Below the pieces are notes generated by a model. The model was not told where the DNA came from and did not search any database. It saw only the letters and a program-made list of their open reading frames with translations. From Herbaspirillum sp. GW103 (GTDB lineage: Bacteria > Pseudomonadota > Gammaproteobacteria > Burkholderiales > Burkholderiaceae_D), in the NCBI RefSeq assembly GCF_000261365.1, contig NZ_AJVC01000003.1:1116001-1180000 (forward strand): DNA of 64,000 nt. Direction: 5' to 3'. Position numbers and translations under genes: made by a program. Below, in pieces: positions 41,738 through 56,758 of this stretch. Each line of letters begins with the position of its first letter. Positions within the stretch are counted from its first letter, which is position 1.

Positions 41738-41832
41738 GGCGTGCGTGAGTTTTCACGGCCATGCACCGGGTTGTGCGCTGCGCACGTGTCTGGTGCAAGG
41801 CGATGTAGGTAGGGAGAGAGGGGCGCCTCAAT

Positions 41833-41876
41833 GAAGGCCGAACGGGGAAGGGCGACAGGCCCTGGCCTTCGTTTTT
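41833..41876 (+). terminator. Probable terminator after lysR
   Basis: GAAGGCC (41833-41839) pairs with GGCCTTC (41864-41870), followed by GTTTTT. The rest of the 300-bp space 41738-42038 has no convincing gene and should hold the promoter of the binding-protein gene. Confidence 0.55.
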
Positions 41877-42038
41877 CTGTGCCGGATTGGTGCAAGATAT
41901 CTAATGGCTTCATCACTTTTAGCACCAAGACTATAAGTTCAGCTTATCAGTCAAGAAACATGCAGGGATTGCTGATCCCCCTGGACTGCCCACAGAATGG
42001 GCTTCCGATTTCATTGATGATCAAGAGGGGATAGCACC

Positions 42039-42869: not shown

Positions 42870-43048
42870 TAACATTCTGCTGAATTTCCAATTGCCGGGG
42901 TGCTGTCAATACGGATGTGCGACGATGGAAGAGGTCGGCCAGCCTTGCTTGACACGTCCCGCTGCAGTCATAAGGTAAAACTTATGTACATAAAAGAAAT
43001 GAACTGGCAGCGGGTGGAGCGTAAAACCGTTTTTTCGGTTCGTGAATT

Positions 43049-43076
43049 ATTTTACATAATACAAATTATGCGAAAT
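43049..43076 (-). other. dif: XerCD dif site (left prophage junction)
   Basis: On the minus strand: XerC arm ATTTCGCATAA, centre TTTGTA, XerD arm TTATGTAAAAT. Both arms fit the proteobacterial dif consensus. It marks the replication terminus and is the left attachment junction of the prophage. The XerD arm should be chromosomal and the XerC arm phage-derived, because the right junction has the reciprocal pieces. A perfect 12-bp palindrome TTATGTACATAA lies ~55 bp to the left. Confidence 0.88.
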
Positions 43077-43118
43077 TTGTTGTGTTTAGCGGCAGCACGA
43101 AACCTTACAAAACGTCAG

Positions 43119-43144
43119 AAAAGCCACCTAAAACGGTGGCTTTT
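43119..43144. terminator. Bidirectional hairpin terminator near left edge
   Basis: AAAAGCCACC pairs with GGTGGCTTTT around a six-base loop; A-run on one side and T-run on the other make it work both ways. It should isolate the prophage edge from the host gene at 42039. Confidence 0.8.
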
Positions 43145-43212
43145 CCTTTACATGGTTTTACGTCTTATTCGTAAAATCACTGATCCCAAAAATTAATGAA
43201 AAGTCAATAAAA

Positions 43213-43584
43213 ATGAGGATGCCAACCCTTCGGTACGGGGATACCGATGAACTTGTGTTCTATGCCGCTGGTCGCCCCATTAAAGACCTCGCGCGCATGC
43301 TACGTCGTTCTGAACGCTCAGTTCACGACTGGCTGACCGGAAAGCAGAAATGCCCTTGGTGGGTACCCGAACTTCTTCGCCTCCGCGCAATGGAGGCCCG
43401 TGAACGGCATAGGCAAATGGGATTTTCCCCAGCAGTAACTAAACGCCTCGGAATTGTCGTTGGCGATGTCATCCAATTTAATGCAGTACCAACCCACAAG
43501 GAAAAGAAGAATGAAAGTGAAGTTCACAGCAGTAGCATCCCTGGCCCTCATCCTGACCGCTTGCGCATCGACGCAACCGGCTAA
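43213..43584 (+). CDS. Small putative HTH DNA-binding protein
   Basis: A 123-aa protein. Residues ~5-75 look like a DUF3653-type phage helix-turn-helix (AGRPIKDLARMLRRSERSVHDWLTGK) followed by the conserved-looking KCPWWVPELLRLR. The real start may be the ATG at 43219. The last ~25 codons overlap the lipoprotein gene in another frame, so the C-terminus is less certain. A role in phage regulation is inferred from the fold and place. Confidence 0.65.
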   Translation: MRMPTLRYGDTDELVFYAAGRPIKDLARMLRRSERSVHDWLTGKQKCPWWVPELLRLRAMEARERHRQMGFSPAVTKRLGIVVGDVIQFNAVPTHKEKKNESEVHSSSIPGPHPDRLRIDATG

Positions 43585-43870
43585 CGTCCTGCCGCTGGCA
43601 GGCGGCCAATACCGGACTACCGGAATTGCCGAAACTGAGCGTGACGCCCAGGCGGCGGCCATCAAGGCGGCCGATTCCACCTGCAGCAAGCAGAGCAAGC
43701 GCGCCGAGGTTTCGAACAGCGAGACGAAATACAAGGGCGTGGTTAGCGAAGGTACCAACCGCAATATCAACAAAGCAGGCGAGCTCGCAGCAGCAGTCGG
43801 TGTCTGGATGCCCGGACTCAGCGGCGACGATGATTATGAAGTCACCCTCACCTTTGCCTGCGCCGCGTAA
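43511..43870 (+). CDS. Prophage-encoded lipoprotein
   Basis: A 119-aa protein with a lipoprotein signal peptide (VASLALILTAC-A, lipobox LTAC). A small domain with two further cysteines (DSTCSKQS and FACAA) follows, perhaps a disulfide. AAGGAAAAGAAG precedes the ATG. It stands apart from the leftward late genes and is separated from them by a terminator. It could be a lysogenic-conversion or superinfection-exclusion factor. That is an inference; it has no recognised family. Confidence 0.75.
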   Translation: MKVKFTAVASLALILTACASTQPANVLPLAGGQYRTTGIAETERDAQAAAIKAADSTCSKQSKRAEVSNSETKYKGVVSEGTNRNINKAGELAAAVGVWMPGLSGDDDYEVTLTFACAA

Positions 43871-43886
43871 CGCTCCCTCGATCTAC

Positions 43887-43916
43887 GAAAAAGCCCCGGA
43901 AATCTGGGGCTTTTTC
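43887..43916. terminator. Terminator between convergent phage genes
   Basis: GAAAAAGCCCC pairs with GGGGCTTTTTC around GGAAATCT, with T-runs on both strands. It ends the rightward lipoprotein transcript and the leftward late operon. The last codon and stop of the 20-codon gene touch it. Confidence 0.9.
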
Positions 43917-43977
43917 ACTTCTTGCGCTTGCGGAAACGGCCCTTGGCCGTACGCGGTGGCATGCGTCGCTTGGTCAC
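43915..43977 (-). CDS. Tiny basic protein (20 aa)
   Basis: A GTG start behind AGGAG encodes twenty residues, VTKRRMPPRTAKGRFRKRKK, 11 of them Arg or Lys. The start overlaps the stop of the upstream gene (GTGA), so it is coupled to it, and the stop is at the operon terminator. Such peptides resemble the DNA-condensing basic proteins of small phages (for example microvirus protein J); binding of packaged DNA is an inference. Confidence 0.7.
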   Translation of the reverse strand: MTKRRMPPRTAKGRFRKRKK

Positions 43978-44153
43978 GTGCTTCTCCTGTCGAAAATATT
44001 GTTGAGACGTTGGTGCGCCTGATCTGCCGTCCGCTGCGCCCGCTCAATCTCTCGACGCTGTGCGCGAATATCTGCACGGATGCCGCCATAGGCCGCTGCC
44101 GCGCTTGCCAGCATGGTCAATGCCTTCTCGATCAAGTCGGGCGAGACGTCCAT
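43974..44153 (-). CDS. Small coiled-coil phage protein (59 aa)
   Basis: From ATG 44153 (MDVSPDLIEKALTMLASAAA), followed by a charged helix (RADIRAQRREIERAQRTADQ). It lies directly after the 57-aa membrane gene and overlaps the next start. The N-terminal half is Ala-rich and could contact membrane; the C-terminal half is probably a coiled coil. No family recognised. Confidence 0.72.
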   Translation of the reverse strand: MDVSPDLIEKALTMLASAAAAYGGIRADIRAQRREIERAQRTADQAHQRLNNIFDRRST

Positions 44154-44157
44154 TCGC

Positions 44158-44331
44158 TTACTTGCTTTCCGGCAGGAAGATGGCGGCGATGGACAGCAGT
44201 GCGCCAGCAGCTTGGCTTACCGCTTGGATGGTGGTCTGCGGCACACCAAACATGGCGGCGGCGGACAGCAGGCCAGCGATACCGGCTTGCGTGGACGGTT
44301 CTTTCAGGCGCTTGAGGATTGCATCTTTCAT
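44158..44331 (-). CDS. Small phage membrane protein (57 aa)
   Basis: The ATG at 44331 with GGAG eight bases upstream is preferred over an upstream GTG. It has two short hydrophobic stretches (GIAGLLSAAAMFGV and AAGALLSIAAIFLP) separated by PQTTIQAVSQ, and a basic start LKRLKEPSTQ. The pattern recalls small holin-like or virion membrane proteins. Position after the endolysin-side genes makes a lysis role possible. Confidence 0.7.
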   Translation of the reverse strand: MKDAILKRLKEPSTQAGIAGLLSAAAMFGVPQTTIQAVSQAAGALLSIAAIFLPESK

Positions 44332-44346
44332 GGTTATCTCCACGGG

Positions 44347-44520
44347 TTAGAAAAGGACGTTGCCGCTCGGGTCTTTGACCGTCACGGAGTTGTTGCTGAC
44401 GAACGCTTGCAGCTTGGGGAATCGGCTCAGCACGAAGGCGGCCAGGAGGACGCCTGCCAGTACGATTACGCCCTCTCGGAGCATGGCTTCAGGCTTGGGT
44501 ATGATCTCTTTCAGGTTCAT
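44347..44520 (-). CDS. Small phage membrane protein (57 aa)
   Basis: MNLKEIIPKPEAMLREG, then one TM helix (VIVLAGVLLAAFVLSRF) and a short polar end (NNSVTVKDPSGNVLF). The ATG at 44520 follows the upstream stop by two bases. Probably a virion membrane component. Confidence 0.7.
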   Translation of the reverse strand: MNLKEIIPKPEAMLREGVIVLAGVLLAAFVLSRFPKLQAFVSNNSVTVKDPSGNVLF

Positions 44521-44522
44521 TT

Positions 44523-44822
44523 TCAGTTCCACAGGTATTTCAAGAAGTCTCCGGCAGGGCAAGCAAATGAGGCATCCCACGTGCGCCCTTCCCGCTTGGC
44601 GCGCTCGCACTCGGTCTCGTCGGTGCGCGGCAGGCCGATGGAATCGCCAATTCCGTACACCACACCAGAAACAGCGCCGTCAGTAATGCCCCAGGCGATA
44701 CCGCCCACGGCTTCACCCACCGCAGTTGCCACATCCGCAACTACAGCTTTTTTTTTTGCGATGTACAGCAGCACCAGCGCGGCAGCACCAGCGCCCAGCA
44801 GAATAAATTTTGTGTTTTCCAT
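44523..44822 (-). CDS. Phage membrane protein with Cys-pair C-terminal motif
   Basis: A 99-aa protein with an N-terminal TM helix (FILLGAGAAALVLLYIA), a Gly-rich middle, and a C-terminal motif ECERAKREGRTWDASFAC followed by PAGDFLKYLW. The two cysteines may form a disulfide outside the membrane. Its ATG overlaps the preceding stop (TAATG). Likely a virion protein; function unknown. Confidence 0.75.
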   Translation of the reverse strand: MENTKFILLGAGAAALVLLYIAKKKAVVADVATAVGEAVGGIAWGITDGAVSGVVYGIGDSIGLPRTDETECERAKREGRTWDASFACPAGDFLKYLWN

Positions 44823-45193
44823 TACCAGTACGTCCCCGGCTTGAATACAACGCTTCCGTTATCCCTGGCAGTGTTGCCAGAGGAAATATTCCCGTAGTAG
44901 TCCGAGATTGCCTGATTCTTGATGTCGGAAAGCATGGGCACTTCGGTATTGACGCCGCCGTTATAAAACTCGCTGATGGTGCCCTTGATCAGGTCCGCAA
45001 GCGGAATCACCAGCGATGGATCAGCCGGGTTGTAGGCCGCACCGCTGTCCGGAGAAAATGGGTTCCATGTGCTGAAGACAGAGCGACTTCCGCTGCTGCT
45101 GGGCGTCCCCGTGGTGCGCCCGCGCGCCAGCGCATAGACCAGCGCGACGGCAGCGGCCCCTATCGCAACGTTGTAGAGCATGGCCTTTTTCAT
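44822..45193 (-). CDS. Phage membrane-anchored protein (123 aa)
   Basis: An N-terminal TM helix (LYNVAIGAAAVALVYALA), a Ser/Gly-rich linker, and a soluble domain (NPADPSLVIPLADLIKG) without recognised motifs. It overlaps the endolysin stop (ATGA). Candidate internal membrane or vertex protein. Confidence 0.75.
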   Translation of the reverse strand: MKKAMLYNVAIGAAAVALVYALARGRTTGTPSSSGSRSVFSTWNPFSPDSGAAYNPADPSLVIPLADLIKGTISEFYNGGVNTEVPMLSDIKNQAISDYYGNISSGNTARDNGSVVFKPGTYW

Positions 45194-45834
45194 GCCAGCA
45201 CCCCGCCCGCTTGCACGAAGGTGTCACGCAGCACGGCCATGCTTTCCTCTCGCTGTCCATATCCTGCACCCGGCAGGCTGGCCCACACACGGCGCACCTT
45301 GGCGATAGCGCTGTCCATATTTCCGGCGTCGATATCGCTTAATGCGCCCTTCTCGTTCGCCAGCTCCAGCGCGATCGCGTCTTGCGATTCCGGCGAAAAG
45401 TCGGTGATGCCCAACTTGGCCGCAACACGCACGTAGGTGGGCTTGGTGATCTGATACGCGCCGGCCGCCGTGGACACACAGCCAGGTCCGAGACCAGCAC
45501 CTGCACACATGGCGTTCGAAAGCGGCAGACCTCGCCAACCAGCAAGTGCCGGATGCGTCGCATAGCTGTCGAACAGCGCGCCACCCACGAGGGTGCGATA
45601 ACCATCGGGGCCGCTGGTGCCTTCTGGCACACGCAGCATGCTCAAAAAGGCCCCACGGTTTCCGCCGTTGCTCGGTACATTCATCCAGTAATCTCCTGCA
45701 GTGTTCGTTATCTCGTCAAAAATCGAGGGCGCGTTGTCGCTCTCGCTGGTGTCGTTGTCCCTGCTCTCGCCTCGCAGCAGCACATAGGCGCTTGCAGCAA
45801 GTAGCGCGGCGAGCAGTAGCCGCTTGTCTATCAT
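45190..45834 (-). CDS. Membrane-anchored lambda-R-type endolysin (GH104)
   Basis: A 214-aa protein. An N-terminal TM or signal-anchor (LLLAALLAASAYVLLRG) precedes a domain clearly like phage lambda R lytic transglycosylase: FLSMLRVPEGTSG (catalytic Glu ~71), GYRTLVGGALFDSYATHPAL, AAGAYQITKPTY, DFSPESQDAIALELANEKGA, VWASLPGAGYGQ. It cuts peptidoglycan during entry or lysis. A tailless phage using this fold with a TM anchor, in the middle of virion genes, suggests a virion-associated entry enzyme. It overlaps the genes on both sides (ATGA). Confidence 0.9.
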   Translation of the reverse strand: MIDKRLLLAALLAASAYVLLRGESRDNDTSESDNAPSIFDEITNTAGDYWMNVPSNGGNRGAFLSMLRVPEGTSGPDGYRTLVGGALFDSYATHPALAGWRGLPLSNAMCAGAGLGPGCVSTAAGAYQITKPTYVRVAAKLGITDFSPESQDAIALELANEKGALSDIDAGNMDSAIAKVRRVWASLPGAGYGQREESMAVLRDTFVQAGGVLA

Positions 45835-46058
45835 GCTGCGGCTTGTCCAGCGTCCGCAGGATCGACGATTGGCGGAATCTCCTGATACTCCCACGCATCA
45901 CCTCGAAAAACGCGCATGAAGCCTTCCAGCTCATCCGCTGGCTCTTTCGCGGTGGCCGATGCTGGGATCAGCCAATTACCCGAGACCAGCGGATCCGCAT
46001 CCGCCTCACCCTGGCCTAGATAGATTCCCGTCTCCGGGTGGTAGTGATAAATCTTCAT
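45831..46058 (-). CDS. Tail-fibre-assembly (Tfa)-like small protein
   Basis: A 75-aa protein beginning MKIYHYHPETGIYLGQGEAD, with GNWLIPASATAKEP and GDAWEYQEIPP, the pattern of the N-terminal part of tail-fibre assembly/chaperone proteins in tailed phages. It directly follows the collar-domain gene, the usual place of Tfa. It probably helps fold the spike. Confidence 0.8.
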   Translation of the reverse strand: MKIYHYHPETGIYLGQGEADADPLVSGNWLIPASATAKEPADELEGFMRVFRGDAWEYQEIPPIVDPADAGQAAA

Positions 46059-46065
46059 GTTGTTC

Positions 46066-46632
46066 TCAATACTTGATCACGGCCAGCATCGCGACGTTTC
46101 GCGGCCTGGTTTCGGTGCCGAAGCGCGGCGCCCCATACGCTCCCAGAGTCAAGGGGGTATTGACGCTCGCGCCGCCCGGATTGTCTACGTTCGCATTACC
46201 CGTATTGCCTCCGAAACCATACGACGAACCAGTTCCGCCCAGCATGCTTATCGTGTGCGCATGCCCTTGGAACTGATCCAGTTGGCCCGAGCCGTTGACG
46301 CGGGAGGCATCCACGCCTCTCCCATCGTCCCAGCCGCGCAAGAACTCGCCGCGCAGGTCTGGCAGTGCGAACGTGGTCGAACCGTCGCCGACACCATAGG
46401 TGGTGCCGATCTTGGCGAACAGGCCCGCATAGGCAGTGCGCGACACCAGCGCGCCGTTTGCCTTCAGCCAGCCGGGCGGCGCGGTGTTGTAGGCCACGTA
46501 TTTGACCTCGCCCGGCAGAGACGCTCTCACATCCAGCTCTGCTAACGCTGCCTGTACGCTGGTGCTGATCAGCGCCCCTACGGGCTTGAAGGAGATGGCC
46601 GCCGCGATCAAGCTACGGACGATGCGGCTCAT
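46066..46632 (-). CDS. Collar-domain spike / receptor-binding protein
   Basis: A 188-aa protein. Residues ~40-100 form a phage tail-collar domain (APPGWLKANGALVSRTAYAG, GVGDGSTTFALPDLRGEFLR). A Gly/Asn-rich region follows, ending RPRNVAMLAVIKY, the usual end of short tail fibres. It starts inside the stop of the 262-aa gene (ATGA). In a phage without a tail it most likely forms the vertex spike that binds the host. Confidence 0.85.
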   Translation of the reverse strand: MSRIVRSLIAAAISFKPVGALISTSVQAALAELDVRASLPGEVKYVAYNTAPPGWLKANGALVSRTAYAGLFAKIGTTYGVGDGSTTFALPDLRGEFLRGWDDGRGVDASRVNGSGQLDQFQGHAHTISMLGGTGSSYGFGGNTGNANVDNPGGASVNTPLTLGAYGAPRFGTETRPRNVAMLAVIKY

Positions 46633-47417
46633 TTCAGCACCTGCATGTTGACCTGGACATTCGCGGTATCGCTGATGCCGTACCAGGTCGCTCCTGCAGC
46701 GTCATCCTCGAAATGAACGTCACCGGGGCCGAGCAAAATCGTCGCGTTTGCCAACGTCACATTGGTGCTACCAAGCGCCACCATTGCGGTGGCATGGGTG
46801 TTGCGAAAGCGAATTTTCCGGTTCGTCGGATCGCTGCGAAGCTGTGCCTTGGTGTTTGCCGTAGGCATGTTCACCACATATTCCAAGATATTCAGTAGCG
46901 ACTGATTGCGCGTCGGTACCGCTGTATCGTCGGTATTCTTCACTGTCACATCCAACGCAGCACCTGCGGCAGGTGCGACGGTGAAGACCGCACCGGCCTT
47001 CTGCGCCACTGGCACGGCATCGGCGTCAGCATTTGTCACTTTGACGTTGCCGAGTACCGGTTCCACGGTCCCGGAGAACGATACCGGTACCGGAGTAGCG
47101 GCCGTATTGGTGATTGCCACGCCGCCCGGTACCGACACGGATGCACCATCCGCAAAGCCCACCTGCACATCGTCGTTGGACACGATGAATGTCACGGTGG
47201 CATCGACTGCGCTGGTGAATTGCAGGCCATCGAAGTCGGTAATCACCTTGAATCCGGTTTTCCGCCCCGGCAGCAGTGCTGCTGCCGCGCCGCGCTGTAA
47301 GATCGTGACATCGACGGATGCCCCTGCCGGAGATACCGAGTCGATAAGGAAGACGCGGCCGGATGTCGGCAGCGGTACCATCTTTCCTGCCTTGAGTTTT
47401 TCGGTGTAAGTCTGCAT
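46629..47417 (-). CDS. Putative vertex/spike-base structural protein
   Basis: A 262-aa, beta-rich, Val/Ala/Thr-rich protein without TM segments or known motifs. It has repeated short beta patterns such as VPGGVAITNTAATPVPVSFS, and an end with MVALGSTNVTLANATILLGP and WYGISDTANVQVNMQV. It is coupled to the collar-domain gene, so a penton or spike-stalk role is the best guess. Confidence 0.65.
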   Translation of the reverse strand: MQTYTEKLKAGKMVPLPTSGRVFLIDSVSPAGASVDVTILQRGAAAALLPGRKTGFKVITDFDGLQFTSAVDATVTFIVSNDDVQVGFADGASVSVPGGVAITNTAATPVPVSFSGTVEPVLGNVKVTNADADAVPVAQKAGAVFTVAPAAGAALDVTVKNTDDTAVPTRNQSLLNILEYVVNMPTANTKAQLRSDPTNRKIRFRNTHATAMVALGSTNVTLANATILLGPGDVHFEDDAAGATWYGISDTANVQVNMQVLK

Positions 47418-47424
47418 TGCTGCC

Positions 47425-47817
47425 CTATTTGCTCAGAGATTTGATTGCAACAAGGCCGAGCACCGCCACCACTGCGCCGACAAGCACCTTCTGCTCACCG
47501 GCCTTGCTGGTGGTGTAGGCGTCGTCAATCTTGGTGCTGAAGTCGGTGTATGCCTGCTGGACTGCCGCCAGTGCAGAGGTGCTTGCCTTCTGGACAGCAT
47601 CTGTCGAGGCCGCTGCCTGACTGGCGGCATTCTTCGCCAGCGCGGTGGCGAAGTCGAACGCCTTCGACACGGTGCCGAAATCAGTAGTCGTCACGCTCAC
47701 ACTGTTGCCAGATGCCCGGCTCATCACCAGGTTTACCGAATCTTGCGCGGCGGCGATCCGGTTGTCCTGGGCTTCGCTTGTGCTGGTCTGGCTTGCGTCG
47801 CTGCTGCTCTCAGACAT
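47425..47817 (-). CDS. Coiled-coil virion protein with C-terminal TM helix
   Basis: A 130-aa protein. The Ser-rich start is followed by a long Ala-rich helix with heptad character (FDFATALAKNAASQAAASTD) and a C-terminal TM helix (VLVGAVVAVLGLVAIKSL). The topology suggests a fibre or pillar anchored in the virion membrane. Confidence 0.72.
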   Translation of the reverse strand: MSESSSDASQTSTSEAQDNRIAAAQDSVNLVMSRASGNSVSVTTTDFGTVSKAFDFATALAKNAASQAAASTDAVQKASTSALAAVQQAYTDFSTKIDDAYTTSKAGEQKVLVGAVVAVLGLVAIKSLSK

Positions 47818-48238
47818 GAATTTTCTTTCTCATAACGAACGCATCAAGCGTCCAACCTTGTTTGCTCAGCTTTTTCACGAGGCCCCTTCGGCGGGTATTG
47901 ATCACGATGCTATCGACCTCTGCGCACTGCGCCGCAATGACTGGCTCAATGGACTGCACCAGATCGAAGCCCGGCGCATGCCCTGCCGCTGCCACGATGA
48001 AAACTTCTGTGCCGCGCGCTCTGTCCACCTGTTTGAGGGCATAGCGGGCGATGGTCACGCCACCGACCTGCACCTCATACAACTGCGCCTCGCGCAAGCA
48101 CGAGTCCATGTCGCCGAGGCCGCCAGTCGTATCCCGACGCTCGTCGAATGCTCGCGCATACGCCGCGCGGGCCGCGTCGTCGAGCGTTCCGACGACGATG
48201 CGCGCTAGATCTTCTTCTTGGCTTTCAACAGCATCCAT
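47810..48238 (-). CDS. GNAT-like phage protein
   Basis: A 142-aa soluble protein from ATG 48238 (MDAVESQEEDLARIVVGTLD). The C-terminal half (EVDSIVINTRRRGLVKKLSK then GWTLDAFVMRK) resembles the last strands and helix of an acetyltransferase fold, often seen in phage proteins of unknown role. An acetyl-CoA loop is not evident, so activity is doubtful. It overlaps both neighbours. Confidence 0.65.
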   Translation of the reverse strand: MDAVESQEEDLARIVVGTLDDAARAAYARAFDERRDTTGGLGDMDSCLREAQLYEVQVGGVTIARYALKQVDRARGTEVFIVAAAGHAPGFDLVQSIEPVIAAQCAEVDSIVINTRRRGLVKKLSKQGWTLDAFVMRKKIHV

Positions 48239-48429
48239 AGGCCCACGGCAGCAGCCGCCATATACAGGAAGTCGGTAGGAATGCCGCCACCGGCCGCGCT
48301 CCCGCTCCCGTTGTTGATGATCCAATCGCCTTGATTGAGCAGGACGTTTCCGCTTACCCCAAACTCCCCACCCTTAGCAGAGCTGGAAGAAGAGGTCTGC
48401 AACGACATGGACGGCATTGCTGGCGTCAT
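48205..48429 (-). CDS. Small C-terminally anchored phage protein (74 aa)
   Basis: A Ser/Gly-rich N-terminal part and one TM helix (FLYMAAAAVGLWMLLKA) followed by lysines. It could instead start at the second ATG. It overlaps the upstream gene by four bases and the downstream one by 34. Virion membrane protein likely. Confidence 0.7.
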   Translation of the reverse strand: MTPAMPSMSLQTSSSSSAKGGEFGVSGNVLLNQGDWIINNGSGSAAGGGIPTDFLYMAAAAVGLWMLLKAKKKI

Positions 48430-48818
48430 TTGCTAACTACCAGGTAGACGCCAACTGCCACCGCACCCCAGAACAGCAACTGCCGACCGCTCAGCGGCTG
48501 GGTATAGCCGACCGGTACGGCCGTGCCATACGGGTATTGCTGTCGATACAGTGCTGCCGCCTGCAACTGCTGATTTGTCTTCGCAATCTGGCTGTTGTAG
48601 TCCAGCTGGTCGCGCTGCAGCGAGTAATTCAGCGCCTTGTCGAGCGCGCCACCGATCCAACTCAGGCTGGACCAGTCGAAAGACTGCATCTGCGGCGCAC
48701 CGTTGCTGTTGTCAGCGGCAGGCGGGGTCGCGGTATCGATGGTGCCGAGGTCGACACCATCAAAGCCGGTGCCGAGGCCGAAGCCCTGGCCGAAGTCACT
48801 TACGGTTCCCCAAGCCAT
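48426..48818 (-). CDS. C-terminally anchored phage protein (130 aa)
   Basis: It starts MAWGTVSDFGQGFGLGTGFD. The middle is a Gln-rich helix (YNSQIAKTNQQLQAAALYRQ) and the C-terminal helix (LLFWGAVAVGVYLVVS) is hydrophobic. It lies immediately after the capsid gene. The anchor plus outward helix suggests a protein linking capsid and membrane. Confidence 0.72.
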   Translation of the reverse strand: MAWGTVSDFGQGFGLGTGFDGVDLGTIDTATPPAADNSNGAPQMQSFDWSSLSWIGGALDKALNYSLQRDQLDYNSQIAKTNQQLQAAALYRQQYPYGTAVPVGYTQPLSGRQLLFWGAVAVGVYLVVSK

Positions 48819-48827
48819 GCGCCCCCC

Positions 48828-49631
48828 TTATTTAAGCTTGCGGATATCGTCGATGTAATCGATATACGCGGTCACGCTGTCGGCCGCCGAGCAGGTCAGA
48901 CGGAGGAATGCTTCATTGACGCCCTGGGTGTTCAGCATGTTCATCAGGTTGCCGTCGGCCAGGAAGTCCAGCACCAGAACGTTGGTTTGCGGCACGAGGC
49001 GGTTGCGCTTCTGGGTGTAGCCGATGGTGCCCGTGGTCGCGCGGATGCGCGGCGCGCCATTCGTGCGCAGTTCGGCCTTGGTCACGTTGCCGCCGTGGTG
49101 CAACCAGATGCGCTTGATCAGGCCACCGGCCTGCACATCGGCCGGCAGGATCAGGTCGTTCTCTCCGACCAGCGGCAGGGCCACATTGAAGTCCTTGCGG
49201 CGCAGAATGAAGGTATTGGGGGTCGGATCGCGGTATTCCGCGTCGGCGGTCAGGGTGATGGTGTTCGGTGCCGATCCGTCGATGGCGACTTCGAAGGTCA
49301 GCGACTGCAACAGGTTGCGCGGGATCGATGCCAGATACTGCGCCGGTGCGCCGCCACGGCTGTTCACCTCGGTGAAGTCCAGAGACAGGATGGCCGGATC
49401 GAGGAACACGCCCTGATAGGCGTCACGCAGGCCCACACGGGTGCCATCGTCGACGAAGAAAGTCGTCCCGTTCGCCTTGCCCTCGATGCGCTTGATCATG
49501 GCCTTGGTGAGGCCGCCGCCGAGGTTGAAATGGATTTTGTCATACGTGGCGTTGTACGACAGCTTCAGAATGGCAGTTGCGCCCGGTCGGACGTTCTGCA
49601 GGTCGATTTGCTGATCCAGAAATGCGGACAT
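48828..49631 (-). CDS. Major capsid protein, probably double jelly-roll (PM2 P2-like)
   Basis: A 267-aa protein, very close to the 269 residues of PM2 P2. It is beta-rich with no TM helix. Two similar halves can be read: ILKLSYNATYDKIHFNLGG to SIPRNLLQSLTFEVAIDG, and NVALPLVGENDLILPADVQA to LVLDFLADGNLMNMLNTQG, each ending in strand-rich segments such as FLRLTCSAADSVTAYIDYID. A small membrane-protein gene and the packaging ATPase precede it, as in PM2-type genomes. The fold is inferred; structure prediction would decide. Confidence 0.72.
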   Translation of the reverse strand: MSAFLDQQIDLQNVRPGATAILKLSYNATYDKIHFNLGGGLTKAMIKRIEGKANGTTFFVDDGTRVGLRDAYQGVFLDPAILSLDFTEVNSRGGAPAQYLASIPRNLLQSLTFEVAIDGSAPNTITLTADAEYRDPTPNTFILRRKDFNVALPLVGENDLILPADVQAGGLIKRIWLHHGGNVTKAELRTNGAPRIRATTGTIGYTQKRNRLVPQTNVLVLDFLADGNLMNMLNTQGVNEAFLRLTCSAADSVTAYIDYIDDIRKLK

Positions 49632-49664
49632 GGTTTTCCTTGTGGTATCGGTGGTTTGCCCTGA

Positions 49665-49808
49665 TTAGGCGGTGGTCGCAGCAGCGGCCACACCGCCCGG
49701 CAGGTACGCGCCCACGACGGGAATGGCGAAGACGCTGCGCTGCACGAAGGCGACGGCGGCGAAGGTCGCCAGAGCGATCAGGGCAGTGTGCATGGTTGCT
49801 TTGTTCAT
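49665..49808 (-). CDS. Small membrane protein before the capsid gene (47 aa)
   Basis: From ATG 49808 with GAGGAAC upstream. A TM helix (TALIALATFAAVAFVQRSVFA) is followed by a second hydrophobic Ala/Gly stretch (VVGAYLPGGVAAAATTA). Abundant tiny membrane proteins next to the capsid gene are usual in membrane-containing phages. Confidence 0.72.
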   Translation of the reverse strand: MNKATMHTALIALATFAAVAFVQRSVFAIPVVGAYLPGGVAAAATTA

Positions 49809-49895
49809 GTGTTCCTCAGAAGGTGGTTTGTCGGTCAATCGAAAGTGAATCAATCGCAGGCCCAACAATGCCGCCTCCCGCATTCATTGAAAATG

Positions 49896-49926
49896 CCCGG
49901 TAACGGGTACGGATACCGTTACCGGG
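49896..49926. promoter_or_regulatory. Strong inverted repeat at the end of the packaging ATPase gene
   Basis: CCCGGTAACGG and CCGTTACCGGG form an 11-bp perfect stem around nine bases; the right arm overlaps the ATPase stop. No clear T-run follows, so it may be an mRNA processing or stability hairpin, or a protein-binding dyad. GGTAACGG-type words recur at 51325-51345 and 52195-52212. Confidence 0.6.
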
Positions 49927-50611
49927 ATTTGTTCTCCCCGCGACGCACCGAGAGGTCCGGGTTTTTGTGGAAAAAATGGAAATTCGGCAGCGTTCGGAGC
50001 TGCTTTTGTGGTTTCACGGCCACGGCCTGGCCTTGCGGGCCCGGTTCGTATGCCGTCTCCAGCCCGAGAGCATCCGCCATCACCTTGGCGTCGTTGTCAT
50101 AGTTCACGCGGTAACAGCGAATCTCGGTGCAGTTGCCGAAAAAATCCTTGTCGATGTTGGCGGGCCGCTGCGCTACGCCGATCAGGGTCAGCCCCTTATG
50201 GCGGCCTGCCGTGGACAGATTGCGCCACGCGGGCGGCGACCACGATGGCATTGTTACGCGGCTCAATTCTTCTACCAACACAGTCGCACCTTCCATCGTC
50301 CACGCGATCCGGCAGAACTGGTCAAACTGCTTTTTCACCTCCGCATCACTCCCGCGCGGCACATACACCATTGCAGCGGCCGGAGACTTCACGGCCTGCA
50401 CCAGCTCGGTAATCTTCCCGCGGACGACGGTTCCACCGCAGAACCGGCCGTATTCGTCGGTATCTTCCAGCGGGGACCAGATGATCAAGCGGTCATACGA
50501 GCGCAGCAGGTCGCCCTTGATGTAGGAGGATTTGCCGGTACCGGAAGCTCCGATAACGGCGTGAATCTTGGCGGCGTTCGCCGTCCCCTTCCCTTTAGTC
50601 TGGCGCGACAA
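49919..50611 (-). CDS. DNA-packaging ATPase (A32/PRD1-P9/PM2-P9 type)
   Basis: A 230-aa P-loop ATPase with Walker A GASGTGKS (21-28), Walker B TVLVEEL (~110-116) with two acidic residues, and a sensor-like GVAQRPANID. This small FtsK/HerA-superfamily form is the packaging motor of membrane-containing double-jelly-roll viruses. It could be confused with filamentous-phage Zot, but there is no TM helix and the neighbours fit a dsDNA tailless phage. It overlaps the upstream gene by 17 bases. Confidence 0.85.
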   Translation of the reverse strand: MSRQTKGKGTANAAKIHAVIGASGTGKSSYIKGDLLRSYDRLIIWSPLEDTDEYGRFCGGTVVRGKITELVQAVKSPAAAMVYVPRGSDAEVKKQFDQFCRIAWTMEGATVLVEELSRVTMPSWSPPAWRNLSTAGRHKGLTLIGVAQRPANIDKDFFGNCTEIRCYRVNYDNDAKVMADALGLETAYEPGPQGQAVAVKPQKQLRTLPNFHFFHKNPDLSVRRGENKSR

Positions 50612-51146
50612 AGTTGCCTCCTATCGGCAGGCCCGTTTTCGGGTCGATTGGCATGCGGGTATCAACCAGACCGTTATCCGGCCTTGGCGGGGCTGCTGGA
50701 CGCTCCATTGCGGCTTTCTTCCGGCGTTCGCTGATCGCCTTCGCGGTGGGCAGCGCAAGCGGTAGCGTTGCCACCACTAGGGCAATCTCCGGGGCGAATC
50801 GCGATATCGTTTCTCCGGCGTCCCAGCCATACTTGTCGGCCACCTGTGCCATCGCGCCGCCCCACTGCATGCAGGCGGCTTCGGTGTACGCTTCCTTCAG
50901 CTCTGGCATGGCGATTCCCAGCAGGCCGCCGAACATGGCCGGAATCTGCGCCCAGGCGGTGGCCGGGTCGGGCAGGTTCGCCTTCTCCGGGTGCAGCGCC
51001 GCGTCTTCCTTCGCTTCCTGTGCCTGCTCTTCAGCGGCGGCCTCAAGGGCGATGCGGTCGAGGTCGCTCATGCCGCCCTGCTCTACCTGTGGCCCCTCAT
51101 GCTCGCTGCCCGATGGCAGCAGGGATTCTTGATCAGCCACGGCCAC
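50595..51146 (-). CDS. Phage protein with one TM segment (183 aa)
   Basis: An acidic N-terminal half (ALEAAAEEQAQEAKEDAALH), a possible amphipathic region (IPAMFGGLLGIAMPELKEAY), a TM-like helix (FAPEIALVVATLPLALPTA) and a proline-rich end. It lies between the zinc-ribbon gene and the ATPase and overlaps both. Possibly a vertex or packaging accessory protein. Confidence 0.68.
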   Translation of the reverse strand: MAVADQESLLPSGSEHEGPQVEQGGMSDLDRIALEAAAEEQAQEAKEDAALHPEKANLPDPATAWAQIPAMFGGLLGIAMPELKEAYTEAACMQWGGAMAQVADKYGWDAGETISRFAPEIALVVATLPLALPTAKAISERRKKAAMERPAAPPRPDNGLVDTRMPIDPKTGLPIGGNFVAPD

Positions 51147-51513
51147 CCCCTACCGCTAACAGCGGCTGCAACCATCCACCGGCCTTCTTCTCGGGTGCGG
51201 CTGGCGGGTTCTTGATGGGCTTCTTCTCGGCGGGGGCTTGTGCCGTTGCTGGCGCTGGTGCGTTTTCCTGTTTGGGGGCGGTAACGGGCACGGCGGCCGG
51301 TGGCGGCGGTGGGTCTTTCGGTTCCGTTACGGTAACGGTAACGGGACGCATGCGGCGGCGCAGATGGCCGTCGCGGTATTCGTTGCGGGTGAAGGTCTGC
51401 GCTGCGCAGTCAGGGCAGAATATGAAGGCGTGGCCGTTCTTGTCTTCCTTGATTTCCGCGTCCTGGTGCGGGCATACCGGGCAATTGGTATGCCCGATGA
51501 CTTCTTTTTTCAT
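51133..51513 (-). CDS. Zinc-ribbon protein with Pro/Ala-rich tail
   Basis: A 126-aa protein. The N-terminal zinc ribbon shows CPVC and CPDC pairs (HTNCPVCPHQ, FIFCPDCAAQTF), followed by a basic patch (HLRRRMRPVTVTVTEP) and a long Pro/Ala-rich disordered tail. Comparable small zinc-ribbon proteins of phages bind nucleic acid or control late transcription. Confidence 0.75.
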   Translation of the reverse strand: MKKEVIGHTNCPVCPHQDAEIKEDKNGHAFIFCPDCAAQTFTRNEYRDGHLRRRMRPVTVTVTEPKDPPPPPAAVPVTAPKQENAPAPATAQAPAEKKPIKNPPAAPEKKAGGWLQPLLAVGGGRG

Positions 51514-51603
51514 CGTCTGATTCCTTCGGCCGCGCCCCGGTAAGGACGCGGCCTATGGTGCGCCTGCCGCCTTGTGAGCGGCCCCGGCGCTGGTGGGTAA
51601 TGG

Positions 51604-51771
51604 TTACTGCTGTTCCAGCGCTTCGACGCGCTTGGCAACGGCGATGAGGGCTTCTTTCTTGGCCTCGTCGCTGGTCGAGTGCCACGCCTCATCGATCAGC
51701 GCCACGAGGGAGGGTTGATCTTTCTTCGGCTTGGCGGTGGCGGTGGCGGCGGTTTTCTTCGGTGCGGTCAT
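51604..51771 (-). CDS. Small Lys/Ala-rich phage protein (55 aa)
   Basis: MTAPKKTAATATAKPKKDQP, then LVALIDEAWHSTSDEAKKEA and a helical end (LIAVAKRVEALEQQ). Its ATG shares bases with the preceding stop (TAATG). The basic start suggests DNA binding and the helical end dimerisation. The 90 bp between it and the zinc-ribbon gene contain a GGCCGCG/CGCGGCC hairpin (51528-51553). Confidence 0.7.
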   Translation of the reverse strand: MTAPKKTAATATAKPKKDQPSLVALIDEAWHSTSDEAKKEALIAVAKRVEALEQQ

Positions 51772-51917
51772 TACAACATTCCTTTCAGGGTGTTCCAGTT
51801 GAGGGAATCCGCCATCTTCGTCAGGAAGGCCCTGACCGGCGACGGCAGGAAGAAGCCGTATTGCTTGACCAAGGCGCAGGCTTCCTTTTCCAGCGCCGTG
51901 GATTGTTCAGTGTTCAT
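51771..51917 (-). CDS. Small phage protein (48 aa)
   Basis: MNTEQSTALEKEACALVKQY, then FFLPSPVRAFLTKMADSLNW. It begins inside the end of the replication gene and ends on the next start, so it is translated by coupling. Predicted mostly helical; no family recognised. Confidence 0.65.
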   Translation of the reverse strand: MNTEQSTALEKEACALVKQYGFFLPSPVRAFLTKMADSLNWNTLKGML

Positions 51918-53616
51918 ACTCAGTGCCATCCTTGAAGCGGTTTTTCCACTTCTCAATGAGGTTTTCTGTTGCGATGGAATGCCCTTTCAAGGATTCCATC
52001 CCTTCGGCTGTCCGCTTTTTCAGTTCCTCTTGCCACTGACGCGTACAGTTATTTACACGAGTCCAAGGAACGGCAACGGCCACAGCCTCTGCCTTGTCAA
52101 GCCGCTTCCACACGTGACGCACCGACTCATATACAGCCTTTCTATTGCTGGTGTGGTACACGCCGCATGGCTTCTTTTCCTCATACGTGGCGTACCGCCC
52201 CGTTACCGTTACAGGGCGCTTCGCGAGCACGATTGCACCGCTACGACCGACATTCGGGCCGCCCTGCTGGCGCAGGTATGACGCGAACGAGGCGCGGCTA
52301 TCTTCTGTCTTCTGCACTGCGCGCCACGCTTCCTTGAGCGCAGGCGGCGCATGGCGGACGGTCTCTTCCTTGATTCGGCGCAGCTCACGCCACACGCCAA
52401 TGGGAGCGCCGCCGATCTGCTGAAACTGGCGAATACCCCAGGTCTGCGCCCAATAGACGACGCGCTGACTCGGGGTGATTTCTTCATTGCCCAGGAGGTC
52501 CGTGGTAACGGTCCAGCCTTCGGCGGTCTTGTGGTCGCCCACATGAGCGCCATCGATATTCTTTGCGACGTACTTTGCGATGTAGCCCGCCGCCGTGCCT
52601 TTGCCGGCCTCAATGTCCACTAACTTGACGCGGTTCTTATCCGCGCCCGGTTCATCGCCGTCCACGGCCAGGGCATAGGCGCGCAACTCCGCCTTATAGG
52701 TCCCCACCTGATCGGCAGGCAGAAACATCAACATGTGCCAGTGTGGGCATCCGTCGTGATGCGGCTCTGCGATGCGGAAACCGTAGGCGCGAATCCCCTT
52801 ACGGTGTAGGCTGGCACGAATGCAGGACCACACCTTGCACAGGTAGGCTTGTGCCTCGCGCGGCGTCGGGGAGCCGAAGGCGACATAACGCGGGTTTTCC
52901 TGGCCGGACTTGGAAAGGACGGCGTGATACTTGGAAGGGGCTGTGATGGTCGCAAACACGCCCACATGGCGCAGGTCAGCGGCGATTTCTTCGAACCCTC
53001 GAATACGGCTCATGAGTTCGCCGCGCCTGATGGCCGGATTTGCCACACCTAGGGCGGCCAGTTTTTCAAGGCTGTATGTCTGTCCGAGTTCGTTTTCAAC
53101 CTCGATGCTCGCCAGCAGCTTGGCGTTTTGCCGGTTGCGACGGCGCTGGCGCTGCACGGTCTCGTCACTGACGTAGACTCCGGTTTTGTAGGACACAAAA
53201 CCCAGCTGGATCGCCACATGCTCAAAACGGCGCGCATGCGCCTTGCGAATAGACCGAAGCCACCAGCCCCGATCAAGAGCGCGACGGGTGATTTCACCTT
53301 TGGTTTCTCCCTTTGGCAATGGGACTTGCTGGCGACGGCAGATAACGCCGATTGCCAGCATGATCGCGTCCACGGTCTTGACAGTTTCACAAATTCGGAA
53401 GCACTCGCGGGCGCAAGCCTCGGCCACCTGATGCAGGGCGCTATCGCCCGCATCCAGGGGCGGCAGATCGGTTTCGCACCACACCTTATCGATGAGGTCG
53501 ATTTTCCGCTCATGGCGCTCCATCCCCTCGCGCTCGAACAGGCCGCGCAGAACGCGGCCCATGCGGCGAGGTAATCCAGCGATAGGCGCGCTGGTCGAGT
53601 GAAACAGGTGTCTCAT
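51907..53616 (-). CDS. HUH replication initiator (P2 gpA / PM2 P12 type)
   Basis: A 569-aa superfamily-I rolling-circle initiator. The HUH motif is at ~288-296 (GCPHWHMLMFLP) and two catalytic tyrosines are in GYIAKYVAKN (Tyr345, Tyr349). An N-terminal region with conserved RGWWLRSIRKAHARRFEHVA precedes the nuclease. The enzyme nicks the phage origin and stays bound to the 5' end. P2-type A proteins and PM2 P12 share this arrangement. It starts at the overlap with the upstream gene (ATGA). Confidence 0.9.
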   Translation of the reverse strand: MRHLFHSTSAPIAGLPRRMGRVLRGLFEREGMERHERKIDLIDKVWCETDLPPLDAGDSALHQVAEACARECFRICETVKTVDAIMLAIGVICRRQQVPLPKGETKGEITRRALDRGWWLRSIRKAHARRFEHVAIQLGFVSYKTGVYVSDETVQRQRRRNRQNAKLLASIEVENELGQTYSLEKLAALGVANPAIRRGELMSRIRGFEEIAADLRHVGVFATITAPSKYHAVLSKSGQENPRYVAFGSPTPREAQAYLCKVWSCIRASLHRKGIRAYGFRIAEPHHDGCPHWHMLMFLPADQVGTYKAELRAYALAVDGDEPGADKNRVKLVDIEAGKGTAAGYIAKYVAKNIDGAHVGDHKTAEGWTVTTDLLGNEEITPSQRVVYWAQTWGIRQFQQIGGAPIGVWRELRRIKEETVRHAPPALKEAWRAVQKTEDSRASFASYLRQQGGPNVGRSGAIVLAKRPVTVTGRYATYEEKKPCGVYHTSNRKAVYESVRHVWKRLDKAEAVAVAVPWTRVNNCTRQWQEELKKRTAEGMESLKGHSIATENLIEKWKNRFKDGTEYEH

Positions 53617-53933
53617 GCGGCGGCTGGCGCGGGAATGCTGCCTCCCTGCATGCAGCGCATGAGGGTTTCCAGTTCGCGTATCAGCCTATCGGCCGTGCGG
53701 TTCACCTTGCCGCGCTGGAAGGCGTCCAGTTCGCGCAGCGGAAGCGCGCCGCGCTCCGCGCCAATCCCGGCCATGTGGCAGATGTACTTTCGGGTCTGCT
53801 CCGGTAGGCTGTTCCAGTGCGCAGCGCGCACAGCCTCACGGTCCGTCTTGAGCAGGAACAGCGATTGCGCAATCGCCGCGTTGCCAGCAGCGTGAGAGAT
53901 TGCCGACTGTTCGGCAGCGGATGCGGCCACCAT
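53613..53933 (-). CDS. Early phage protein of unknown function (106 aa)
   Basis: It begins MVAASAAEQSAISHAAGNAA. A helical middle (WNSLPEQTRKYICHMAGI, RGALPLRELDAFQRGKVNRT) has the look of a small DNA-binding or replication accessory protein. Coupled to the initiator gene. Confidence 0.68.
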   Translation of the reverse strand: MVAASAAEQSAISHAAGNAAIAQSLFLLKTDREAVRAAHWNSLPEQTRKYICHMAGIGAERGALPLRELDAFQRGKVNRTADRLIRELETLMRCMQGGSIPAPAAA

Positions 53934-53936
53934 GAC

Positions 53937-54035
53937 TTATCCCCGCGTCAGTTCGATGGCACTCAGGATAGTAGCCGAGCACAGCAGGCCGAAGCCCAGG
54001 ACGCACATGGCGGCATCTTTGATTTTTGCGCTCAT
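53937..54035 (-). CDS. Tiny membrane protein (32 aa)
   Basis: MSAKIKDAAMCVLGFGLLCS with one TM helix to about residue 28 (ATILSAIEL). It has GAGGCGACC before the ATG, twelve bases after the previous stop. Possible inner-membrane or superinfection factor; unassigned. Confidence 0.62.
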   Translation of the reverse strand: MSAKIKDAAMCVLGFGLLCSATILSAIELTRG

Positions 54036-54046
54036 GGTCGCCTCGC

Positions 54047-54244
54047 TCAGACGCCGGTCAATTCGTACAGGGCAATTGCGGCGTTCTCGCGCTCGCTCTC
54101 CCAGAAGTGACGCGCACCCGCATCGCTTCCATGCTTCTCGCACTGCACTGCCATGTTTTCGCAGAATTGGATTTTCGATTGAAGCGCCTTGCAGGCTTCC
54201 AGGACGGTTTTGTTCGTCAACTCATGCTGTTGCTTGTTCGACAC
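54047..54244 (-). CDS. First early-operon protein (65 aa)
   Basis: It starts with GTG at 54244, AGGGGG eight bases upstream. Helical protein: TNKTVLEACKALQSKIQFCE, then HFWESERENAAIALYELTGV. First gene under the leftward early promoter, so perhaps an antirepressor or replication helper. No family recognised. Confidence 0.7.
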   Translation of the reverse strand: MSNKQQHELTNKTVLEACKALQSKIQFCENMAVQCEKHGSDAGARHFWESERENAAIALYELTGV

Positions 54245-54249
54245 ATTGA

Positions 54250-54337
54250 CCCCCTAGGTCTTGTCCCCGGCAAATAATCGACCGGGGCGGCGTCAGCCGT
54301 CTTTTGCCTAGGGAGCGATGAGGAGTCCCCGGTCGAT
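54250..54337 (-). promoter_or_regulatory. Structured 5' leader of the early operon
   Basis: On the minus strand ATCGACCGGGG (54337-54327) can pair with CCCCGGTCGAT (54287-54277). The same CCCCGG can also pair with CCGGGG at 54270-54265. Within the loop CCCTAGG (54313-54307) can pair with CCTAGGG (54258-54252), which overlaps the ribosome site. A small CGGC-TGAC-GCCG hairpin lies in the middle. These alternative stems could control translation of the first gene; alternatively the region may contain the nicking origin. Confidence 0.6.
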
Positions 54338-54345
54338 AGGGACGG

Positions 54346-54434
54346 ATCATAGTTGAATGATTCTCTACGCGTCAACTGTTATTCAACGTTGAATGTCAAT
54401 CTTCATTGAACGTTTAGAGACACTTACCTATCAT
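54346..54434. promoter_or_regulatory. Divergent phage promoters with repressor operators
   Basis: Leftward: TTGACG (54375-54370), 18-bp spacer, TATGAT (54351-54346). Rightward: TTGAAC (54406-54411), 17-bp spacer, TATCAT (54429-54434). TTGAA/TTCAA half-sites recur at 54353, 54382-54393 (perfect palindrome TTCAACGTTGAA) and 54406, overlapping both promoters. This fits a repressor switch: the HTH protein at 54482 should shut the leftward operon and control its own promoter. Confidence 0.78.
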
Positions 54435-54481
54435 ACGGCTACACCGCCTACGTCCAGGCGCGTCTAGCCCTAGGAGAGCAT

Positions 54482-54793
54482 ATGCACACGAATGATTATT
54501 TGGAGTTGGTAAAGAGGAAACTCGACCTGCCGTCCGATTACGCGCTAGCAAAGGTGCTAGGCGTGACGCGCAGTGCCATCAGCCACATGAAAATGGGTAA
54601 AAGTGGTATCGGCGACGAGACCGCCGTTAAGGTTGCCGAGTTGACCGGCATTCCGGTTGCTCGTGTTCTTATTGATGTCCATCTTGAGCGCTCGAAGGCT
54701 CCAGAGGTTAAAGCCGCCTGGGCCTCGATGATGGAAAAGTTTTCAGCGTCTTTTGATGCCCTCATGCCACGCCGCAGCCCGCGCCTAGCTTGA
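54482..54793 (+). CDS. Prophage repressor (Cro/C1-type HTH)
   Basis: A 103-aa protein with an N-terminal helix-turn-helix (YALAKVLGVTRSAISHMKMG, then DETAVKVAELTGIPVARVL) and a short C-terminal helix (WASMMEKFSASFDALM). AGGAG five bases before the ATG. It is the only rightward gene at this end and is divergent from the early operon. Confidence 0.83.
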   Translation: MHTNDYLELVKRKLDLPSDYALAKVLGVTRSAISHMKMGKSGIGDETAVKVAELTGIPVARVLIDVHLERSKAPEVKAAWASMMEKFSASFDALMPRRSPRLA

Positions 54794-54826
54794 CTTTCGG
54801 CGCGGTGGCATGAGGTATGTGCTGCC

Positions 54827-54854
54827 GCTTAACACCCTACAAATTATGCGAATT
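54827..54854 (-). other. Right prophage junction (half-dif attachment site)
   Basis: The centre TACAAA and XerC arm TTATGCGAATT are kept, one base different from the left site, while the XerD side is degenerate (GCTTAACACCC). Reading both junctions, the ancestral chromosomal dif was arms ATTTTACATAA and TTATGCGAATT, and the phage site had only a good XerC arm. About 70 bp of host spacer follow before the siderophore exporter gene. Confidence 0.8.
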
Positions 54855-54923
54855 AACGACAACAAGCCCGGCACACCCGTGCAGACGTTGGACGTGCCCC
54901 TCATCACCCCTCATCACGCAAGC

Positions 54924-56576: not shown

Positions 56577-56758
56577 GCGGTAACGAGGTTGGGATGACGA
56601 GCGAAAAGCAGTGACAAGAAAATCGCGAATGAAAACTTCATATTGACCTGACGATCCAGCTGCCCCGCCATTTACCCCTGCTGACCTGTCGGGATGCCGC
56701 CCCCAACGGCCCATTTCCCCGCTGCAAAAGGCATTGCAGCCCGTTTACCGCCCTCGCC

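Follow-up and report, generated by a model that had tools for sequence, protein, structure and literature searches.

Within the window, a 64,000-nucleotide stretch of the Herbaspirillum sp. GW103 genome (contig NZ_AJVC01000003.1, positions 1,116,001 to 1,180,000), an element of 11,806 bp with outer attachment (att) borders at 43049 and 54854 occupies the only dif site of its host. This element is a PM2-like tailless prophage. We consider it likely, with a probability of roughly 0.8, that it was integrated by the host recombinases XerC and XerD through a half-dif phage attachment site (attP), with the helix-turn-helix (HTH) gene beside its left junction as the predicted Xer accessory factor. 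The direct observations behind this reading are the gene families, the dif junctions, the lack of a recognisable integrase among the 28 element proteins, the xerC- and xerD-type genes of the host, and the linkage of the junction gene to the site. A first-pass annotation had placed a corticovirus-like prophage with about 28 genes at 43060-54843. Its gene set is present at that place, and only the ends had to be moved, because both borders lie 11 bases farther out; the dif sites and the junction gene were not part of it.

Three genes identify the element as PM2-like. They are given below with their occurrence among the 21 elements, counting that of the window, for which both borders were found.

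48828..49631, minus strand: major capsid protein of the PM2 P2 family, a double jelly-roll by Pfam, profile and structure model
49919..50611, minus strand: packaging ATPase of the PM2 P9 family, present in 21/21 elements
51907..53616, minus strand: rolling-circle initiator of the Phage_GPA / PM2 P12 family, present in 20/21 elements

The HUH-type initiator, the A32/P9-type ATPase and the capsid candidate of ~267 amino acids had all been named in the first-pass annotation, and each assignment holds. The initiator matches Phage_GPA at 1.4e-77; the ATPase has a P-loop with the Walker A motif GASGTGKS and is a P9 relative by profile; and the capsid protein matches P2_N (PF18628, 2.2e-20) and P2_C (PF25513, 1.1e-24), both above cut-off. 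Family profiles, built from 21 elements for the capsid and the ATPase and from 20 for the initiator (E-values for 1000 sequences), match PM2 P2 at 3.5e-16, PM2 P9 at 1.2e-34, with the PG21 ATPase at 5.8e-25, and PM2 P12 at 1.4e-110. An AlphaFold model of the capsid protein from 35 sequences (predicted local distance difference test 92.5, predicted template modelling score 0.88) is a double jelly-roll whose nearest structure is PM2 P2: the best Foldseek match in the PDB is 2vvf (E 3.8e-23, template modelling scores 0.90/0.89, root-mean-square deviation 1.9 Å, 17% identity), and STIV follows behind it at 1.9e-12. A PDB sequence search with the capsid protein at E 1 returned one match, 9t9v, which is a double jelly-roll capsid (2.1e-7). 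Moreover, the packaging ATPase gene neighbours the capsid gene, as expected of Vinavirales, and the order of initiator, ATPase, small hydrophobic open reading frame, capsid, small open reading frames and spike resembles that of PM2.

A filamentous-type virus or a single-stranded DNA (ssDNA) double-jelly-roll (FLiP-like) virus would also account for a rolling-circle initiator, and the junction gene described below is common to filamentous phages. However, the initiator is P12-like, the capsid is P2-like, and the P9-like ATPase profile does not match the one Zot (L060:4611-5681) or the two secretins that were taken from local filamentous prophages for this comparison (here and below, our handles for genomes begin with G and those for contigs or loci with L). 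The Pfam Zot match on the window ATPase is below cut-off (E 0.049). We therefore regard a virus of either kind as extremely improbable. The two outcomes that the first-pass annotation had set as refutations, a capsid model lacking two jelly-rolls and an ATPase that groups with Zot proteins of filamentous phages, did not occur. The first-pass statement that the element lacks terminase, portal, tail and integrase genes stands in part: none is above the Pfam cut-off in the 28 proteins, with the exception of a tail-collar domain (PF07484) at 46066-46632. Below the cut-off, Terminase_5 matches the HTH protein at 43213 (0.034) and a tail-terminator model matches the capsid protein (0.055). PHROG 2666, which is named terminase large subunit, matches the ATPase at 5.6e-29; this label was ruled out because the protein is a P9 relative by profile search. 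The count of at least nine tiny transmembrane proteins was too high. According to hydropathy (mean >=1.6 over 19 residues, 26 proteins measured), the number is nearer seven, namely the proteins at 44158, 44347, 44523, 44822, 47425, 49665 and 53937, and that at 48205 falls just under the cut; the hint of a virion membrane is limited to these small hydrophobic proteins.

The junctions and the gene beside the left one carry the second part of the argument.

43049..43076, plus strand: left junction attL, a full dif (ATTTTACATAA-TACAAA-TTATGCGAAAT), with the XerD arm on the chromosomal side and the XerC arm on the phage side
54827..54854, plus strand: right junction attR, a half-site (GCTTAACACCC-TACAAA-TTATGCGAATT) with a degenerate XerD arm, the same central 6 bp and an intact XerC arm
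43213..43584, plus strand: junction gene of the family that we call fA, encoding a 123-amino-acid HTH protein and predicted from an HTH model and its linkage to XerC-type sites to be an Xer accessory or regulatory factor

The two ends share a 24-base direct repeat, and attR is identical to dif at 15/15 bases of the central region and the XerC arm; likewise, 11 other elements of the host family have such a border with at most 2 differences. Within 3 mismatches, the 5.05-Mb host genome contains a single full 28-base dif, and the 23-base dif core (at most 2 mismatches) occurs in one copy each in 20/41 genomes, including its own; neither had a match in the control sequences. Chance cannot explain the element, given family models far above threshold and a full dif found once in the genome. 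In the six same-genus genomes that have dif on a chromosome-sized contig, the site lies at 0.475-0.492 of the contig, which is where the terminus is expected if the contig begins at the origin. In addition, an unoccupied dif of the same genus (G163, L057) is identical to the predicted attB, at 28/28 bases. Among 34 genomes of the genus, a near-complete left flank was found in G264, ~5.4 kb from dif, and in G082, where the stretch examined contains no dif; the right flank was found in the prophage-free G240, beginning ~140 bp from dif. In no relative listed among these genomes do both flanks adjoin an empty dif, and the empty site is therefore argued from the single flanks and the dif of G163. 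When L055 (G240) and L111/L202 (G264) are compared with window positions 41000-43040 and 54860-56720, dif has the opposite orientation relative to the common flanks, suggesting that the dif/prophage block was inverted or that the terminus was rearranged.

The host encodes a XerD above the curated cut-off (371.9 bits), and its best XerC match is 1 bit below its own cut-off. No Pfam integrase or resolvase family matches any of the 28 element proteins. The element thus lies in a chromosomal dif, has dif-like att sites and lacks a recognisable integrase, the features by which integrative mobile elements exploiting Xer are defined.

In the host family, nearly all relatives of this prophage are found at the same site, in two mirror-image forms. 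PM2-like capsid genes occur at 24 loci in 23 of 392 genomes of the host family, and 23 of these loci are within ~7 kb of a full dif; the remaining one (G349) is on a 4.1-kb contig. In 21/21 elements with both borders, one junction is a full dif. The far border consists of the central region and the XerC arm in 12 (XerC type: the window, G059, G196, G260, G254, G271, G273, G232, G328, G013, G210 and G247) and of the central region and the XerD arm in nine (XerD type: G026, G116, the first copy of G039, G250, G237, G388, G099, G208 and G387). G115 and the second G039 copy have no partner border meeting our rule, and both have fA beside dif. The two PM2-like prophages of G039 (L065, L084, L085) lie on opposite sides of one dif. 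Pseudoduganella namucuonensis (L203, L204) has one XerC-type and one XerD-type PM2-like copy, on contigs that end before the junction gene. A VGJphi-like assignment of the XerC type was dropped, because the combination of a fully matching centre and a diverged XerD arm is that of TLCphi (PMC5357621, PMC4246890). The type changes six times on the capsid tree, at least four of them on well-supported branches (mean of 7.1 when shuffled), and seven times on the initiator tree, at least five on well-supported branches; the capsid tree carries a long-branch warning, with the window and G247, both XerC type, joined.

The junction gene follows the type of the half-site. Homologues of fA are found in 12/12 XerC-type versus 0/9 XerD-type elements; presence in all elements of one type and absence from the other is not seen for any of the 25 further window queries. 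A second family, fB, adjoins the junction in 8/9 XerD-type versus 0/12 XerC-type elements. In the host family, fA occurs in 49/392 genomes (63 matches listed). We scored the sites at 51 matches in 50 loci, two matches being pieces of one broken gene in L156. In 43/51, a site is located no more than 300 bp upstream and the gene stands on its XerC side (36 full dif, seven XerC half-sites); of the remaining eight, one is on the XerD side and seven have no site. Without the 12 elements used to build the profile, the association is 31/39, and 88,676 bp of control sequence contained 0 dif or half-sites. The gene fB occurs in 11/392 family genomes and is on the XerD side of a full dif in 11/11, eight of which are profile elements. 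Outside the family, fA has weak matches in two of 273 other genomes of the class. PHROG 10187 is matched by both proteins, at profile positions 5-72 by fA and 91-142 by fB. At E<=5 in Pfam, four fA proteins have mostly weak HTH-type matches and three fB proteins have none. The window fA and one fB protein have no tblastn match in 50,697 phage records, and literature searches, mostly without full text, found no published account of an XerD-half-site element or of fA or fB.

Filamentous prophages use the same gene and site. In G207 (L060 966-9605) and G026 (L050 1184-10423), the element that carries fA on the XerC side of dif has secretin and G2P initiator genes and is a filamentous prophage; Zot was scored for that of G207. 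These prophages accompany PM2-like ones at dif or take their place, and in G116 additional copies of fA lie as far as ~39 kb from dif. Thus, dif seems to collect stacks of elements. Outside the capsid list, 19 further fA regions were usable, some of them ending early at contig ends; seven have a G2P-type initiator (including G130) and one has a capsid fragment (G256). Of the 76 Pfam families matched by 36 proteins from the further fA regions, the 25 listed were mostly host families. The association of fA with its site persists down to 35% protein identity and extends to these filamentous phages. From these sequences we infer that the half-site and the junction gene may form a small, swappable Xer-integration cassette common to PM2-like and filamentous phages. 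The lipoprotein gene at 43511-43870, next to fA, has homologues among the 21 elements in the window, G059, G196, G026 and G116 only, and is common to both junction types within the genus; therefore, the swap point would lie between fA and this gene.

The wider form of this proposal is that a Xer-hijack cassette, consisting of half a dif and a dedicated cofactor gene, moves between double-stranded DNA (dsDNA) membrane phages and ssDNA filamentous phages, that it has two mirror forms (XerC and XerD side) with two new cofactor families, fA and fB, and that it rebuilds the host dif on insertion. We hold this tentatively, at something short of an even chance, and the cofactor role of fA is a predicted, candidate role. 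According to the explanation that competes with it most directly, fA and fB regulate immunity or the choice between lysis and lysogeny and hitchhike with the half-site, XerC and XerD suffice for integration, and the match of gene to arm is linkage. The fA product is indeed an HTH protein, the distance between site and gene is only ~20-230 bp, and G130 breaks the arm match. In addition, the attP-adjacent HTH protein gp1 of phage Jorvik is annotated as a lysis-lysogeny factor (PMC10589892), and the attP-overlapping region of the filamentous phage XacF1 is the counterpart of an immunity determinant in phage Cf (PMC5666396). However, linkage of this kind has to account for an association that is still seen at 35% protein identity and that includes filamentous phages, and a separate HTH repressor-type gene is already present at the other end of 21/21 elements. 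Furthermore, deletion of the XacF1 gene delayed integration and destabilised the prophage (PMC5666396); therefore, immunity and integration roles are not exclusive. Simple linkage of a regulator is thus a serious rival, to which we give appreciable weight, somewhat below one half.

Several observations weigh against integration by the host recombinases with fA as accessory factor, or against its generality or novelty. The simpler cause of the association is linkage itself, since a gene ~100-160 bp from a site travels with it regardless of its role. Neither fA nor fB matches a Pfam activator family; the fold of fA is a plain HTH, a repressor-like feature, with no PDB match at E <=0.001. Among the fA matches, 7/51 have no site, one to two of them at contig edges, and 11/19 of the further fA regions contain neither PM2 nor G2P genes. 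The filamentous element of G130 (L201) combines an XerD half-site with fA, one counter-example from which it follows that arm matching is not absolute, and the XerD-type element of G208 has a different junction HTH gene (L090 526-867) without a clear family. With four supported independent switches, a sign test cannot attain 0.05 (of the independent-pairs test, which set the class label against itself, only the number of pairs is used). In other families, the dif-like site of G395, with 2 mismatches, falls at 0.97 of its chromosome-sized contig, and the mid-contig rule is therefore not general; a PM2-like element in G546 has no dif in 19.9 kb. The use and rebuilding of dif by tailless and filamentous prophages has already been reported in Vibrio, where the tailless prophages regularly carry integrase genes (PMC11630473). 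Finally, the integrity and inducibility of the element are putative.

The last point also bears on the possibility that the element is a degenerate remnant, a dead PM2-like prophage kept because dif tolerates insertion, with the small lipoprotein and the variable spike region possibly reflecting cargo decay. However, the core genes are open and both junctions are intact, capsid proteins 91% and 87% identical occur in other data, and a relative in IMG/VR (L205, 12,796 bp, 127-bp terminal repeat) is apparently complete and circular. We consider a remnant unlikely. For Vinavirales, circular dsDNA genomes of about 9-12 kb are expected; the 11,806 bp of the window element is the length of the inserted form between its outer att borders, and the circular form is that of the relative L205. 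L205 has no recognised half-site, fA or fB; a 91-amino-acid gene of no known family stands at the fA/fB place.

If host XerC and XerD did integrate the prophage, the steps may have been as follows. The circular phage DNA would carry an attP composed of a degenerate XerD arm, a central region identical to that of dif, and a XerC arm. Recombination of attP with dif would produce a full dif on the fA side and a half-site at the other end; with a full dif left on the fA side, the host would keep dimer resolution. By analogy with TLCphi, the first strand exchange would be made by XerD, triggered without FtsK by a phage factor, for which fA is the candidate and, in XerD-type phages, fB. After induction, the P12-type initiator would start rolling-circle replication, a membrane-lined P2 capsid would be filled with DNA by the P9 ATPase, and lysis of the cell would fall to the lysozyme. 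A 2022 survey called the integration mechanism of most Vinavirales prophages, those other than HGV-2, unclear (PMC9502842). The site, geometry and candidate factor are named here, and the integration question therefore becomes directly testable. If the cassette proposal is true, two phage realms share one portable route to the chromosome-dimer enzymes of the host, the mirror form asks XerC and XerD to work from the other side, dif is a contested, rebuilt hotspot, and fA and fB are small natural regulators of Xer recombination.

The remaining features of the element are as follows.

43511..43870, plus strand: small lipoprotein with the lipobox LTAC (by eye), a possible lysogeny gene; zero Pfam matches
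44158-44343, 44347-44610, 44523-44822 and 44822-45193, minus strand: four small membrane proteins by hydropathy, at the end of the late operon; zero Pfam matches
45190..45894, minus strand: endolysin/lysozyme-like protein (PHROG 90 endolysin, 5.4e-37), with homologues in 10/21 elements counting the window
46066..46632, minus strand: tail-collar-domain protein (PF07484, 5.7e-23), a probable receptor-binding part, with a homologue in G099 only among the 20 other elements
46629..47417, minus strand: putative spike at the PM2 P1 position, with homologues in G260 and L205
47425..47817, minus strand: structural protein with a C-terminal transmembrane segment, named P10 by position only; homologue in L205
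47810..48325, minus strand: conserved protein named by its place at the Vinavirales N-acetyltransferase position (that of Jorvik gp12), with homologues in 17/21 elements counting the window
48205..48818, minus strand: two small proteins downstream of the capsid gene at the P3/P8 positions, with homologues in L203 and L204
49665..49883, minus strand: small hydrophobic protein between ATPase and capsid at the P7 position, with homologues in G247 and L203-L206
50595..51513, minus strand: two proteins between initiator and ATPase; that at 51133-51513, at the P13/P14 position, has a zinc-ribbon-like CxxC motif and a weak Lar (restriction-alleviation) match below cut-off (PF14354, 3.8e-5)
53613..54244, minus strand: small early proteins
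54482..54793, plus strand: HTH repressor-type protein adjoining the right junction (PF01381, 6.2e-7)

The suggestion that the element may represent a new lineage is not borne out. There are 131 homologous capsid proteins, and the 120 listed are headed by identities of 96%, 91% and 87% (Corticoviridae sp.); the sources of the 96% entry are not given, and it may represent the cluster of the window protein itself. The named close relatives, at 68% and 67%, are the two copies in P. namucuonensis, a member of Oxalobacteraceae. PF18628 is present in 23/392 genomes of the host family and in 1/273 other genomes of the class; scans with a single capsid sequence found nothing. Moreover, PM2-like elements of betaproteobacteria are already in print (Krupovic and Bamford 2007, PMC1950889; Yutin 2022, clade D, PMC9502842; Jorvik 2023, PMC10589892). 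The International Committee on Taxonomy of Viruses now recognises five families of Vinavirales; three of them are new, with exemplar phages from Rhodobacter (one), Vibrio (two) and Marinomonas (two) (PMC12451628).

Compared with Pseudoalteromonas phage PM2 (Corticoviridae, Vinavirales; AF155037), the element has homologues of P2, P9 and P12 in the order initiator, ATPase, capsid, small membrane proteins and spike. For a place in the family Corticoviridae, as distinct from the order, the comparison covered these three signature genes. It differs in a capsid protein only 17% identical in the structural alignment, in being a prophage at dif, in a phage-endolysin-type lysozyme (PHROG 90) in place of the P5/LytD type reported for PM2 (PMC9502842), and in its tail-collar protein and fA, which are not named in the PM2 annotation. 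Clade D of Vinavirales, whose PM2-like prophages are found mostly in Betaproteobacteria and have a T4-lysozyme-like enzyme (PMC9502842), is likely its home clade. Jorvik (Mestraviridae) and NO16 (Asemoviridae) have dif-like att sites, and use of XerC and XerD has been proposed for both (PMC10589892, PMC9966536). Like our element, Jorvik has no predicted integrase (PMC10589892), and its attP adjoins an HTH gene; unlike it, Jorvik has a different replicase, and its dif-like attB is in the RuBisCO operon, at a place that varies between hosts. Jorvik gp1 shows no significant match to fA (6.1 bits). The Jorvik2 variant carries changes in and near the HTH gene beside attP, and no stable lysogen was obtained with it among 20 colonies (PMC10589892). 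In Vibrio, tailless and filamentous prophages are both found at dif, and several have a dif-like motif said to preserve it; the half-site types and junction-gene families are not described in the available part of that account (PMC11630473). XacF1 likewise has an attP gene whose deletion delays and destabilises dif integration, although its attP is inside the gene (PMC5666396).

According to the accounts of TLCphi and the gonococcal genomic island, respectively a satellite phage of Vibrio cholerae and a genomic island rather than a PM2-like phage, attP has a dif-like XerC arm and centre and a divergent XerD arm (PMC5357621, PMC4246890). The mirror type with an XerD half-site has no counterpart in the available parts of these accounts. 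TLCphi integrates reversibly as dsDNA, with XerD acting first and without FtsK (PMC4246890, PMC5357621), and XafT is its activator, as cited in PMC9765430. The attP arrangement that characterises TLCphi is also that of the window element.

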